Of a stretch of DNA of 64,000 nt, positions 13,090-46,599 are shown piece by piece. Positions within the stretch are counted from its first letter, which is position 1. Each line of letters starts with the position of its first letter. The DNA is from Chloroflexota bacterium. Its GTDB lineage: Bacteria; Chloroflexota; Dormibacteria; Dormibacterales; Dormibacteraceae. Both the position numbers and the translations under genes were made by a program. The notes under the pieces were generated by a model that was not told where the DNA came from, did not search any database, and saw only the letters and a list, made by a program, of their open reading frames with translations. The stretch lies in assembly GCA_005883575.1 (NCBI GenBank), contig VBFH01000023.1:248001-312000 (forward strand), in the 5' to 3' direction.

Positions 13090-13791
13090 GTGGTCGTCAT
13101 CCCCGCCGTCGACATCCTCGGTGGGCGCTGCGTGCGATTGACGCAGGGCGATTACGAGCATCCGAAGGTTTACGCCGACGACCCGGTGGAGGTGGTCGAG
13201 ATCTTTGCGGCCGCGGGTGCGCGCCGGGTGCACGTTGTCGACCTCGACGCCGCGCGCGGCACGCCGAACAACCGCAGCGTGATCACGGCGATGCTGCGCG
13301 AGCCCGAGATCGAGCTCCAGGTCGCCGGCGGCGTGCGCAGCATGGAAGATGCCGACGCGCTCCTGGAGGGTGGCGCGCACTGGGTCGTAATGGGAACGAC
13401 GGCCGTACAGAACCCGCGCGTCTTTGAACGCTGCGCGCGGCGCCATCCCGGCCGAATCCTGGCGGCGCTCGACATCCGCGACAACCAAGCCGCGGTCGGC
13501 GGCTGGCTGGACACGGCGCCGGTGGTGATCGGCTCGCTCGTCGGCCGGTGGGACCGCCTGCCCCTCGCCGGCATCATCCTCACGTGCATCGACCGGGACG
13601 GCACCATGGCCGGGCCAGACGTCGAGACACTCTCCCGGGTACGCCGGATGACCGGCCTCGACCTGCAGTACTCGGGCGGGATTTCCTCGGTCGAGGACAT
13701 ACACCGGGCCATCTCCGCGGGGGCTCGGGCGGTGATCCTGGGTAAAGCGCTGTACGAAGGGCGGCTCACGCTCGAGCAGGCGCTGGCGTGA
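13090..13791 (+). CDS. hisA: Phosphoribosylformimino-AICAR ribotide isomerase (HisA)
   Basis: 233 residues, TIM-barrel. It isomerises ProFAR to PRFAR in histidine synthesis. Asp8 (PAVDILGG), the first phosphate site (QVAGGVRSMEDADAL), TCIDRDGTM with the second catalytic Asp, and the second phosphate site (YSGGISSVEDI, VILGKALYEG) are present. No other his gene is nearby, so this copy is isolated from a his operon. A dual HisA/TrpF (PriA) role cannot be judged by eye. The stop overlaps the next gene (GTGA). Confidence 0.9.
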   Translation: MVVIPAVDILGGRCVRLTQGDYEHPKVYADDPVEVVEIFAAAGARRVHVVDLDAARGTPNNRSVITAMLREPEIELQVAGGVRSMEDADALLEGGAHWVVMGTTAVQNPRVFERCARRHPGRILAALDIRDNQAAVGGWLDTAPVVIGSLVGRWDRLPLAGIILTCIDRDGTMAGPDVETLSRVRRMTGLDLQYSGGISSVEDIHRAISAGARAVILGKALYEGRLTLEQALA

Positions 13792-14180
13792 GGAGAGTCG
13801 CGCTGGTCGCGGTGGCGGCGCTGCTCATCGCCTGCGGCGGTCGCGAAGCCGCGGACGACCAGGGCCTGCACAAGGGCATCCAGGACAACACCAGTGGCGC
13901 CGAGGTGACGTTCGACGCCACCGTTCTCACTGATCCGGTCGAGAGCGGGGGGCACGAAAGGTTCGAGGTCAAGACATCGACCGGCGAGACGCTCGAGGTC
14001 GATCACAACACCACCCTTGCCGAATCGGTGCCCGTGCACAAGGGGGATGGGGTCGTCATCCACGGCCAGCTCTATATCGACCCCGGACCACGCTACGGCG
14101 TTCATTGCACGCACGCGCACACTTCGGGCGGATGCCCGAACCCCGGATGGATCGAGTACAACAACAATTACTACGAATGA
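13788..14180 (+). CDS. DUF3465-like lipoprotein
   Basis: 130 residues from GTG 13788, which overlaps the hisA stop by four bases. An N-terminal hydrophobic segment ends in a lipobox (LLIACGG, Cys16). The mature part resembles DUF3465 proteins: FDATVLTDP, HERFEVKTSTGETLEVDHN, KGDGVVIHGQLYI and VHCTHAHTSGGCPNPGWIEY. It is probably a small OB-like domain outside the membrane. Function unknown. Its stop overlaps the start of a 52-residue gene. Confidence 0.75.
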   Translation: MRRVALVAVAALLIACGGREAADDQGLHKGIQDNTSGAEVTFDATVLTDPVESGGHERFEVKTSTGETLEVDHNTTLAESVPVHKGDGVVIHGQLYIDPGPRYGVHCTHAHTSGGCPNPGWIEYNNNYYE

Positions 14181-14335
14181 ATCGCAGAGTGCGCCCCTCG
14201 CCGATCAGCTTCCTCCGCAACGCCATGGCGGGGTCATACGGCCCGCTTGGACGGTTGCGACTGATCGCTGACAACGTGCGGAGAAAGGCCGGCGGTCGTG
14301 GGTGCTGCGGCAACTACGGCGACCCCGGTTGTTGA
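14177..14335 (+). CDS. 52-residue basic peptide ending in a CCGNYGDPGC motif
   Basis: ATG 14177 overlaps the DUF3465 stop (ATGA), which argues for coupled translation. The peptide is basic (many Arg) with a hydrophobic patch (PISFLRNAMAGSYGPLG) and ends in a Cys cluster: Cys43, Cys44 and Cys52 in GCCGNYGDPGC. The ending looks like a metal-binding or modification site, but I cannot name a family. A gap of 56 bases separates it from the quinone oxidoreductase gene. Confidence 0.55.
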   Translation: MNRRVRPSPISFLRNAMAGSYGPLGRLRLIADNVRRKAGGRGCCGNYGDPGC

Positions 14336-14391
14336 ATGACGAAAGAGGAGGCCCGTGCGGCCGGTTTGATCAGGTAGGAGGAACTACTCTG

Positions 14392-15330
14392 ATGCATGCA
14401 GTCGTCTTCGAACGCAACGGCGGGCCCGAGGTGCTCGACTTTAAGGAGACGCCCGAGCCCTCGCCTCGCGATGGCCAGGTTCTGGTCGACATCGCCGCGA
14501 TCGGTGTGAACTTTCGCGACGTCTACGAACGCGAAGGCGCAGATTACGGCTCCAAGCCGCCCGCGATCCTCGGCGTAGAGGGCGCGGGGATGCTCGCCGA
14601 ATCGGGCGAACGGGTGGCGTGGATCGACGTTCCCCACAGCTACGCGGAACGGGTCGCGGCGGATCCTCGCAAGCTCGTACCCATCCCCGAAGGCGTGGCG
14701 ACCGACGTCGCGGCGGCGGCGCTGCTGCAGGGCTTGACTGCCCACTATCTCGCTCACGATTCGTACCCGATCCAGAAGGGGGATTGGGTTTTGGTTCACG
14801 CGGGAGCCGGTGGCGTCGGGCTGCTGCTGACCCAGATCGCCAAGCTGCTCGGTGGGCGCGTCATCGCCACCACCTCTTCTGAGGAGAAGGCACTGCTGGC
14901 CAGGGACGCGGGCGCCGACGAGGTGCTCAGCTACGAAGGTTTCGCCGAGCGCGCTCGCGAGATCACCGGCGGCGAGGGCGTCGCGGCCGTCTACGACGGC
15001 GTCGGGAAGACCACGTTCGCCGAAGGGTTGCTTGCGATCCGGCCGTTCGGCCGCATGATCCTTTATGGCGCAGCGAGTGGTCAGCCGGAACCGTTTCGGC
15101 TTCAGCTGCTCGCGAAGCATGGGTCGCTTTACGTGCAGCGGCCGACGGTGCAGACGTACACGCGCACCGCCGATCTCCTCCGCGACCGCGCACGCAAGGT
15201 TTTCGAGCTCGTTCAGCAGGGCAAGCTGAAGATCCGCATCGGGGCGAGGTATCCACTGCGCGAGGCGCGGCAGGCGCACATCGACGTGCAGGCGCGCAGA
15301 ACCAGCGGGAAGACCCTGCTGGTGCCCTAG
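14392..15330 (+). CDS. Zinc-independent quinone oxidoreductase (MDR superfamily)
   Basis: 312 residues from ATG 14392, with a good ribosome binding site (AGGAGGAAC, from 14377). NADPH-dependent reduction of quinones is the usual role. GroES-like N-half (IGVNFRDVYEREG, ILGVEGAGML) and Rossmann half (LVHAGAGGVGLLLTQIAKLLG, AYDGVGKTTFAEGL-like segment) are present; the zinc-binding cysteines of alcohol dehydrogenases are absent. The stop TAG shares a CTAG with the convergent SDR gene. Confidence 0.88.
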   Translation: MHAVVFERNGGPEVLDFKETPEPSPRDGQVLVDIAAIGVNFRDVYEREGADYGSKPPAILGVEGAGMLAESGERVAWIDVPHSYAERVAADPRKLVPIPEGVATDVAAAALLQGLTAHYLAHDSYPIQKGDWVLVHAGAGGVGLLLTQIAKLLGGRVIATTSSEEKALLARDAGADEVLSYEGFAERAREITGGEGVAAVYDGVGKTTFAEGLLAIRPFGRMILYGAASGQPEPFRLQLLAKHGSLYVQRPTVQTYTRTADLLRDRARKVFELVQQGKLKIRIGARYPLREARQAHIDVQARRTSGKTLLVP

Positions 15331-42021: not shown

Positions 42022-42971
42022 ATCAGCACCACGCGGTCCGGACCGGACTGGTGGACGACCTCGCCAACAGTCAGCGCCACCTCCGGCACGTCTTTCGGAT
42101 CCACGACCAGGACCATCCCGAGCCCCATATTGAACGTGCCCCACATCTCGTCGTCGGAGACGCGGCCGCGTTTGCGGATCTTGTCGAAGATCGCCGGCAC
42201 CTCCCACGCGCTTTTGTCCAGTTGCGCAGTGACGCCCTCAGGAAGGCAGCGCGGCAGGTTTCCAGTTATGCCGCCGCCGGTGATGTGCGCGGCGCCCTTC
42301 CACCGGATGCGCCGAAGGTCACTCAGGTAGGACATGTGCGGCGCCAGCAGCTCCCTCGCGAGCGTTCCGTCCAGCGGCACGCCGTCGAGGACCTTGCGCG
42401 CCAGCGAGTAGCCGTTTGTGTGCAGCCCGTTCGAAGGAAGTCCGACCAGCACGTCTCCGGCCTTGATCTTCGCGCGGTGGTCGCCTGGCTCGACGAGGCC
42501 GACGATGAAGCCCGCGAGGTCGTAGTCGCCGAGCGCATACATCCCCGGCATCTCGGCCGTCTCGCCGCCGAGCAGGGCGCAGCCGGCCTCACGGCAGGCG
42601 GCGGTCATCCCTTCGACGAGCTGGCCGAAGACCTCTGGGTCGAGCTTTCCGGTCGCGAAGTAATCGAGGAAGAAGAGCGGGCGCGCACCGGCGCATGCGA
42701 TGTCGTTGACGCAGTGGTTCACGATGTCGACACCGATGCCGCGGTGCATCCCTGCCGCGATGGCGACCTTGATCTTGGTGCCGACTCCATCGGCGCTGGC
42801 GGCGAGCCGGGCGCCGCTCGGGAGTGCGTACAGGCCGGCAAACGGACCCACGCCGGCCGCCACCTCCTTGCCCTGGGTGGCCGCTATCAACGGCTTGACG
42901 CGTTCGAGGGCGCGCTCATAGGCCTCGATGTCGACGCCGGCGGCGGCGTACGACAAGCCTTCCTGGGACAC
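42018..42971 (-). CDS. purM: Phosphoribosylaminoimidazole (AIR) synthase
   Basis: 317 residues from GTG 42971. It closes FGAM to AIR with ATP. Visible: LSYAAAGVDIEAYERAL, SADGVGTKIKVA, HCVNDIACAGARPLFFLDY, LGGETAEMPGMY, HTNGYSLARKV and AHITGGGITGNLPRCLP. Normal length. Five bases after the purF stop; CTGA overlap with purN. Confidence 0.96.
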   Translation of the reverse strand: MSQEGLSYAAAGVDIEAYERALERVKPLIAATQGKEVAAGVGPFAGLYALPSGARLAASADGVGTKIKVAIAAGMHRGIGVDIVNHCVNDIACAGARPLFFLDYFATGKLDPEVFGQLVEGMTAACREAGCALLGGETAEMPGMYALGDYDLAGFIVGLVEPGDHRAKIKAGDVLVGLPSNGLHTNGYSLARKVLDGVPLDGTLARELLAPHMSYLSDLRRIRWKGAAHITGGGITGNLPRCLPEGVTAQLDKSAWEVPAIFDKIRKRGRVSDDEMWGTFNMGLGMVLVVDPKDVPEVALTVGEVVHQSGPDRVVLI

Positions 42972-44409: not shown

Positions 44410-46599
44410 TTAGAGGAACATTGCCTCCCAGGCCTGACGAACCTCGGCGAGCGAAAGCTTGAGCTGGCCCTCGAACTCGATGTGGTCGCCTCCCGCCAGG
44501 CCGAGAAGCGAGAGCTCGACGTTGTGGCGGCGTGCCAGTGACTGCAGCTCAGGCATCGCGCGCGAGGGCACGGTGACGATGTAACGGCTCGGCGATTCGC
44601 CGAAGAAGGCGGCGTCGAGTCGGAGCGGAGGCTCCGGCCGGATCGCCGGACAGCGCACCCCGATGCTCCCGAGCAGACAGCATTCTGTGAGCGCCACCAG
44701 CATGCCGCCCTCTGCGCAGTCGTGCGCCGAGTGAAGGTATCCGCTCTGGGCGGCGCTCAGCATCAGCCTGTTCACAGCCTTCTCGCGAACCAGGTCGAGG
44801 CCAGGCGGCCGGCCGGCGACGTGGCCGTGCTCGACCTTGAGGTATTCGCTGCCGCCGAGGTCGTTGTGGCTGGACCCGATGAGGAGGACGAAGTCGCCCT
44901 CGGCGCGGATCCCGGCGCTCAGGCGCTTGCCGTAATCGTCGATCACGCCGACCATGCCGACCACTGGGGTCGGATAGATTGCGGACTCGCCATTGGAGTC
45001 GTTGTAGAGGCTCACGTTGCCACTGACCACGGGCAACTCGAGTGCGCGGCACGCGTACGCGAGGCCGGCGATCGCCTCCTCCAGCTCCCAGTACACCTCG
45101 GGCCGGTCGGGGTTGGCGAAATTCAGGCAGTCGGTGACCGCGAGGGGCCGCGCGCCGGTGGCGATGATGTTGCGCGCAGCCTCCGCAACCGCCAGCTGCG
45201 CCCCGAGGTGCGGATCGAGGTGGCAGTAGCGCGCATTGCAGTCGGTCGTCACCGCGAGCCCCAGTCGCGTGCCTTTCACGCGCAGCATCGCGGCATCGCC
45301 GCCGGGCGCAATGACCGTGGAGTCGCCGACCATGTGGTCGTAGCGGCGGAAGATGCCGCGCCGGCTGCTCAGGTTCGGACTCGCGAGCATGCGCAGCAGG
45401 GTGGCGCCCGGATCGGCGAGCGGCGGCAGCGCGGCGATCTCGAGACCGTACGGCGGCTCGGGAGCAAAACCGACGAGCCGGCGCGTCGGGGCTCCGTCGG
45501 TCAGCAGCTTCACTGGCACACGCGCCACATGATCTCGGCCATCGACGACCGACAGCTGTCCGTCGTCGGTCACCTCCCCGATCACGGCCGAACTGAGGTC
45601 CCACGCCTCGAAGATGGTCTCGACCTCGCGCTCACGACCTCGCCTGACGACGACCAGCATCCGCTCCTGAGATTCCGAGAGCATTACGTCGTACGGGCTC
45701 ATCCCGCGCTCGCGACGCGGCACGCGCTCGACGTCGATGAGAGCGCCGGCCCCCTCCACTCGGCCCGCGCACTCGGCGACCGCCGAGGTCAGACCGGCCG
45801 CACCGAGGTCCTGGATCGCCACCACCGCGTCTGTGTGCGTGAGGTCCATGCAGGCTTCGAGCAGGCATTTCTCCAGGAATGGGTTGCCCACCTGGACCGC
45901 GGGCCGGCGCTCGGAGCTGTTCCCATCCAGCTCGAGGGACGCGAATGACGCGCCGTGGATCCCGTCGCGCCCCGTGTCAGCGCCGACCAGCAGCAGGCTG
46001 TTTCCTGTGCCTTCCGCCCGGGCCCGCACCAGCTGGTCGGTGCGCACCAGGCCGACGCACATCGCGTTGACCAGAGGGTTGTTCGCGTAGCACTCCTCGA
46101 AGTACACCTCGCCGCCCACCGTCGGGATGCCGATGCAGTTCCCGTAGCCCCCGATCCCGGCGACGATGCCCTCGACGTGATGGCTCGATTCGGGCAGGGG
46201 GCCGAAGCGAAGCGAGTCCAGCAGCGCGATAGGCCTTGCGCCCATGGCGATGACGTCGCGGATGATGCCGCCGACGCCGGTGGCAGCGCCCTGGTAGGGC
46301 TCGATCGCGGACGGGTGGTTGTGCGACTCGATCTTGAAGACCACCGACCAACCCTCGCCGATCTCGACCGCACCCGCGTTCTCGCCGGGTCCCTGCACCA
46401 CGCCAGGCCCGCTGGACGGAAGGCGGCGCAGCAGCGCCTTCGAGCTCTTGTACGAGCAGTGCTCCGACCACAACACCCCGAGCATGCCGAGCTCGACCTC
46501 GTTGGGGGCTCGTTTCAGCTGCCCGACGATGACTTTGTACTCATCCGGGGTGAGCGCGACCTCACGCAGGCGGCGCTCGTCCACAGACTTGATGCTCAA
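44410..46599 (-). CDS. purL: Phosphoribosylformylglycinamidine synthase subunit II (small PurL)
   Basis: 729 residues from TTG 46599 (TTGA overlap with purQ). ATP-dependent amidation of FGAR, using ammonia from PurQ with PurS as bridge. Visible: [54 protein letters not shown] in blocks, and the second half ([27 protein letters not shown]). Length is that of the small PurL type. Confidence 0.97.

Follow-up and report, generated by a model that had tools for sequence, protein, structure and literature searches.

The TGA codon at 14333-14335 of the window (the whole stretch of 64,000 nucleotides that was analyzed) is very probably a selenocysteine (Sec) codon, with the encoded peptide continuing past CCGNYGDPGC. 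Sequence comparison makes it very probable that the gene is a member of a previously undescribed bacterial family of small selenoproteins. The ATG open reading frame 14177-14335 (+) is present, has the translation MNRRVRPSPISFLRNAMAGSYGPLGRLRLIADNVRRKAGGRGCCGNYGDPGC, and spans 52 codons ending in CCGNYGDPGC. Read past the TGA, the frame runs to a TAG at 14375-14377 and yields CCGNYGDPGC-U-MTKEEARAAGLIR, 66 amino acids in length. The original prediction described a small and easily overlooked gene at 14177-14335 with an important Cys cluster, and both parts of that description have held up. Its C-terminus has not, as the peptide was taken to end at CCGNYGDPGC, and the central feature, a UGA read as Sec beside the last Cys, is absent from it. 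The features of the locus are collected in Table 1.

Table 1. Coordinates of the predicted selenoprotein gene, its parts, and the adjoining genes in the window
Feature	Position	Strand	Remarks
DUF3465-type lipoprotein gene, upstream	13788..14180	+	PF11948, E 1.5e-07
Full predicted selenoprotein gene	14177..14377	+	52 codons, UGA (Sec), 13 codons, TAG; relatives keep frame and tail
52-codon part, ends CCGNYGDPGC	14177..14332	+	Conserved N15, N33 and Cys loop
UGA, predicted Sec codon	14333..14335	+	TGA or Cys codon in relatives
Post-Sec tail MTKEEARAAGLIR	14336..14374	+	Near-identical tail within the window's family
SECIS-like hairpin GGCC-CGTGC-GGCC	14350..14362	+	Loop starts after 18 nt from UGA
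MDR-type, quinone-oxidoreductase-like gene, downstream	14392..15330	+	AGGAGGA ahead of it overlaps the TAG

The DUF3465-type lipoprotein gene is preceded in the window by hisA, which it overlaps by GTGA, and overlaps the small gene by ATGA, so that the start ATG of the small open reading frame sits within the ATGA closing the lipoprotein gene. On the downstream side, a Shine-Dalgarno-like AGGAGGA ahead of the MDR gene overlaps the TAG of the predicted selenoprotein. An Rfam scan of the window returned zero matches. Two weak matches to the SelD profile, both below the cut-off, lie on the minus strand of the window (approximately 42540-42716 and 45988-46389) and are perhaps other PurM-type proteins.

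Relatives of the gene are widespread in the phylum. Matches at E <1e-6 were found in 25 of 37 genomes from the window's genus and family. A profile HMM, which was not tied to the expression CCG..G.PGC, found relatives in 58 of 400 phylum genomes (E 0.001; ~14%, including a few Cys forms); one of these carriers, G122, is a weak match without a tail, and the profile match in G216 deviates in the motif (CCGHPREPGC). A DNA pattern for the motif was present in 65 of the 400 genomes, part of them chance matches outside the family, compared with 9 of 400 for the reversed pattern. In the class of genome G087, the pattern occurred in 73 of 197 genomes (37%, again with a few Cys forms) and the control in 1 of 197. 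Searching a collection of 84,980 species gave 393 stretches that matched a pattern; 11 loci were confirmed among them, and all 11 come from entries with Chloroflexi, Dehalococcoidia, or SAR202 in the title. Carriers include single-contig genomes in genus g52, here taken to be Dehalogenimonas. One pattern match on a viral contig (L098) failed the family fit and a phage search gave zero family matches; a plasmid search returned two weak unrelated matches (E 5 and 8), and zero with another member as the query.

The first sample provided 77 distinct member sequences after rows L098 and L159 were removed; start codons were chosen by script and are doubtful for L018, L025, L030, and L031. The residues C, C, G, G, P, G, and C occur in 77/77 by construction, because the sequences were selected by an expression containing them. 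Two Asn residues outside the motif are also conserved, at the columns of N15 (75/77) and N33 (73/77). The 120 pairwise comparisons of 16 genus-level sequences all gave a pN/pS <1 (median 0.5, range 0.13-0.81); the last 12 codons had a mean pN of 0.09 against a pS of 0.48, with a pN of 0.34 in the remaining codons. Conservation of the motif and frame in relatives, the absence of which the original prediction had named as grounds for giving it up, was looked at and found.

TGA directly follows the last Cys codon in 74/74 members that end there (51 TGT-TGA and 23 TGC-TGA), a count that leaves out three Cys-form members with longer tails; in these remaining three of the 77, a Cys codon takes the place of the TGA. 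For comparison, TGA accounts for 203 of 488 stops of neighboring open reading frames of at least 200 amino acids. A second sample, drawn from the 197-genome set of G087's class, comprised 67 rows, of which 64 had TGA, 2 TGC, 1 TGT, and 0 TGG; here the pattern required TG after the motif, which excluded TAA and TAG by design, whereas the earlier 400-genome pattern made no such demand. One of the TGC rows (L201) repeats G203 from the first sample, so the second sample contributes two further Cys forms, G429 and G521. With both samples taken together, TGA follows PGC in 138 distinct sequences (74 from the first and 64 new ones from the second), and Cys replaces Sec in five genomes (G072, G133, G203, G429, and G521). 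The locus of G203 (L114; also L068 and L201) has a TGC codon at this position, yet retains a SECIS-like hairpin (loop CGTGA) that is spaced from this codon as in its Sec relatives; from these features, it looks like a recent Sec-to-Cys change. The Cys codon immediately before the UGA (14330-14332 in the window) is TGT in 16/16 genus-level members, while both Cys codons ahead of it are TGC (16/16).

Beyond the UGA, the frame extends for 2 to 31 codons, and the tail is almost constant across the window's family. Ten loci (L030, L034, L037, L063, L065, L069, L073, L242, L245, and L246) have His-rich in-frame tails. Seven of them (L063, L065, L069, L073, L242, L245, and L246) use both CAC and CAT, and the other three (L030, L034, and L037) use CAC only.

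Bacterial SECIS elements are modeled in the published account as a small loop with G in the first two positions, located 16-37 nt from the UGA (PMC13188914). This loose rule was satisfied by 73/74 members, and also by 122/203 ordinary TGA stops and 2282/3700 shuffles; with controls and shuffles passing as well, it carries little weight in such GC-rich DNA. A tighter rule, tuned on the first 74 sequences after their inspection, placed the start of the loop 17-21 nt after the UGA and demanded a loop of 3-5 nt beginning with G and then G or T, on a stem of at least 4 pairs, 3 of them G-C. It was passed by 73/74 members, compared with 12/203 ordinary TGA stops and 104/3700 shuffles (~3%). Applied unchanged to the 64 new TGA sequences, it passed 59 and failed 5, with 87/3150 shuffles passing. 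The selD gene of the window's own genome (G000), the single other Sec gene tried, fails the tight rule; its UGA is followed at 17 nt by GGTG, which lies within a predicted fold of another kind. Since selD surely needs a SECIS, the tight rule is a description of this family, not of SECIS elements at large.

Covariation was assessed in 21 hairpins, with the word GGTC and not the pairing as the anchor. In these, 80% of cells pair and both-side changes occur in all five pairs. The covariation score of 0.760 compares with a shuffled mean of 0.238 (0/500 as high) and a slid maximum of 0.360, and a hairpin permutation test agrees (84 pairs against a permutation mean of 47.6, the highest of 2000 permutations being 68). 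Synonymous sites in the five hairpin codons hardly change among 29 sequences belonging to the family type of the window, while the flanking codons vary. Folded alone, the hairpin stretch of the window was no more stable than its shuffles (z 0.18).

The machinery for Sec insertion is complete in G000, which carries selA (510.6 bits), a selB that directly follows it, selD, and a tRNA-Sec with the anticodon TCA. The selD gene (G000:C86:204596-205507) contains one in-frame TGA, giving GAG-U-ACK, and is itself a predicted selenoprotein gene. SelA served as the marker of this machinery across genomes because the SelB model TIGR00475 matched all 400 genomes and every one of the 14 controls, which probably reflects matches to other elongation factors, and was dropped. 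In the phylum draw, with SelA called from per-genome E-values and carriers taken from the profile search with their tails checked, SelA was present in 52/54 Sec-form genomes and in 269/346 others, the latter including three Cys forms (p 7e-4, ignoring relatedness and completeness). In the second sample, it was present in 49/53 Sec-form genomes and in 38/77 pattern-free genomes, these 77 being part of the pattern-free genomes of the 197-genome sample (p 1.3e-7, ignoring relatedness and completeness). Six Sec-form genomes had no SelA above the cut-off (G007, G368, G459, G428, G431, and G447), and G447 has a SelA fragment of 142 bits below it. Two of the five Cys-form genomes, G072 and G203, have SelA, and the other three (G133, G429, and G521) do not.

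Recoding of the UGA is strongly supported by these comparisons, and a route to the product can be proposed. SelB would bring Sec-tRNA to the UGA at 14333-14335, guided by the hairpin beginning 14 nt after it, and following Sec insertion the ribosome would continue to the TAG at 14375-14377. The product would consist of a basic and probably helical N-terminal part, followed by a loop shaped by Gly and Pro, C-C-G-[HN]-x-G-[EDQ]-P-G-C-U. The N-terminal part is basic in the family (mean net charge of about +7 before the loop), and AlphaFold models were poor (mean pLDDT 60 and 58), with helices at low confidence. Within the loop, the vicinal Cys-Cys and Cys-Sec pairs would form a reactive thiol/selenol center that is a strong nucleophile and a soft-metal ligand. 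Such a center might either cycle between a reduced form and a selenylsulfide, as a redox carrier, or hold a soft metal or metalloid ion. We infer, with about an even chance of being right, that the CC...CU loop serves in redox chemistry and/or the handling of soft metals, and either role alone would be less likely than that. The C-terminal sorting signal offered in the original prediction is unlikely, because the Sec reading places the motif away from the C-terminus.

The selenoprotein may act mainly by binding or passing soft metals or metalloids and not by redox catalysis; this narrower version of the selenoprotein reading is a possibility, with the balance somewhat against it. At least 4 His within 10 residues outside the loop occur in 10/77 members (internally in L026), compared with 17/634 control open reading frames, and further His-rich tails appear in the second sample; the same figures leave 67/77 members without a His cluster. 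Met-Cys starts are found in 8/77, some of them then followed by His, and one Cys form ends PGCCATGSCSIGPEHPH. Sec may be a metal ligand in the SaoB, SaoC, and UXX-star families, according to their treatment in PMC13188914. Among the neighbors, which were named only in part, there is no metal-resistance gene that recurs beside the gene. The His-rich ends in several lineages would mildly favor metal handling.

If the UGA were an ordinary stop, the gene product would be a metal-binding protein of 52 residues with Cys at its end, and the hairpin would be a terminator, an attenuator, or an mRNA stabilizer. The unremarkable stability of the window hairpin on its own, the many ordinary TGA stops that pass the loose rule, and the failure of selD under the tight rule all agree with this reading, but it is very improbable given a TGA that is replaced only by Cys codons, a covarying hairpin whose distance from the UGA varies little and whose loop has G-G/U early on, conserved and sometimes His-rich in-frame tails, and the association of the Sec form with selA. 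A terminator is further disfavored by the sequence close after the window hairpin, where there are only three T and no terminator-like run of U.

The surroundings of the gene differ between lineages. Its usual order in the window's family is YajQ, hisA, the DUF3465 lipoprotein gene, the small gene, and the MDR gene, whereas in another group of lineages, and in that group only, it lies between leuD and leuB. Elsewhere the neighbors include glutamine synthetase with a transporter, membrane proteins without Pfam matches, TspO, heliorhodopsin, and a pyridine nucleotide-disulfide oxidoreductase; the identities of leuD, leuB, glutamine synthetase, and the transporter were assigned by eye. The next gene downstream encodes heliorhodopsin at L133 (G368) and TspO at L127 (G324). 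The translational coupling to the lipoprotein gene that was originally proposed would rest on the ATGA overlap in the window and is lineage-specific; the overlap with the lipoprotein gene was recognized by sequence context in 14/77 members, among which L006 has the lipoprotein gene further upstream. A general functional link to the DUF3465 lipoprotein was rejected, as the neighbors change with lineage. Among the neighbors that were named, no cluster recurring across distant lineages was seen, and the gene therefore seems to function independently of them.

The gene is present in tandem copies in some genomes, with two between leuD and leuB at L119, L130, and L138 (family f71) and three each in G565 and G487 (L179 and L184). 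Every tandem copy that was read has its own UGA and hairpin. A second copy suspected on one contig of G029 was not found there.

Modification of the Cys cluster, also raised in the original prediction, would in the RiPP sense make the peptide a precursor with a helical leader and a Cys-rich core, cleaved and modified by enzymes acting in trans. Short length, a conserved C-terminal part with a variable N-terminus, and the tandem copies would suit such a precursor. Nonetheless, this reading is highly unlikely, because the partly named neighbors vary by lineage with none recurring across lineages, two Asn are conserved in the supposed leader, and the tail after the core is 2 to 31 residues long. 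A leader peptide for Cys-dependent attenuation was rejected in view of the conservation of the amino-acid sequence, including the two internal Asn.

The family was absent from the databases searched. The 52-residue peptide had zero matches in Pfam and NCBIfam, as did 38 members without the post-Sec tail at E 0.1; a profile of the 38 had zero matches in the PDB, and one of the 38 matched PHROGs at E 0.043. Six full-length members were also used as queries, four with Sec written as Cys and two natural Cys forms. They gave zero Pfam matches at E up to 10, a range in which HMMER filters drop most matches above ~0.1, and one chance match in NCBIfam at the same limit (UreE over a His tail, E 0.99). 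No profile match was obtained to the models of known selenoproteins (KCU-star, SaoC, MbdU, CC/Se, and others), as far as these are present in NCBIfam or Pfam. A 2026 review counts 119 prokaryotic selenoprotein (sub)families; judged by the descriptions in its Table 1, several share a CU pair and none is recognizable as this family (PMC13188914). Literature text searches for the motif found no description, and a search combining PGCU with the lineage names gave no title describing the family among the matches listed. The account of Dehalogenimonas alkenigignens, in the portion concerned with Sec, reports Sec machinery and putative selenoproteins that include SelD and formate dehydrogenase, and does not name the small protein there (PMC4918011).

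If the assignment is correct, the family would represent a major use of selenium in Chloroflexota (~14% of the 400 sampled genomes and 37% of the 197 in one class), and the carriers in genus g52, the putative Dehalogenimonas, may bring it within reach of work on cultures. One prediction method, according to its authors, may miss selenoproteins without Cys homologs (PMC12013277), and the small number of Cys homologs in this family bears on that limit. The furthest-reaching proposal is a small, phylum-wide selenoprotein, nearly always in the Sec form, which annotation misses as gene callers end the frame at the UGA and which, whatever its gene neighborhood, would serve as a stand-alone Cys-Sec arm that binds soft metals or metalloids, or else reduces peroxides or disulfides. 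As a whole, this proposal is tentative and falls a little short of an even chance.

Among known selenoproteins, the KCU-star/DUF466 protein is presumably small and ends at its Cys-Sec pair. That "CU" pair (NF033934; Table 1 of PMC13188914) is shared with the present family, in which, however, Sec follows CCG[HN]xG[EDQ]PGC and precedes a tail, and no profile match links the two. SaoC "Cys-Cys-COOH" (NF040734), SaoL, MbdU, HgcA, and the Csac_0668 type are also listed with a CU motif (PMC13188914), but the family has no NCBIfam match. The selD gene of G000 resembles the small gene in having an in-frame UGA, an indication that the genome reads UGA as Sec elsewhere, and differs in encoding an unrelated protein and in its downstream fold. 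Mammalian thioredoxin reductase carries a flexible C-terminal Gly-Cys-Sec-Gly arm that is able to form a selenylsulfide. The likeness to this arm, for which homology is not claimed, is that of a Cys-Sec pair on a flexible, Gly-flanked end; unlike thioredoxin reductase, the predicted family member has no flavin domains and would be a stand-alone protein of 66 residues.
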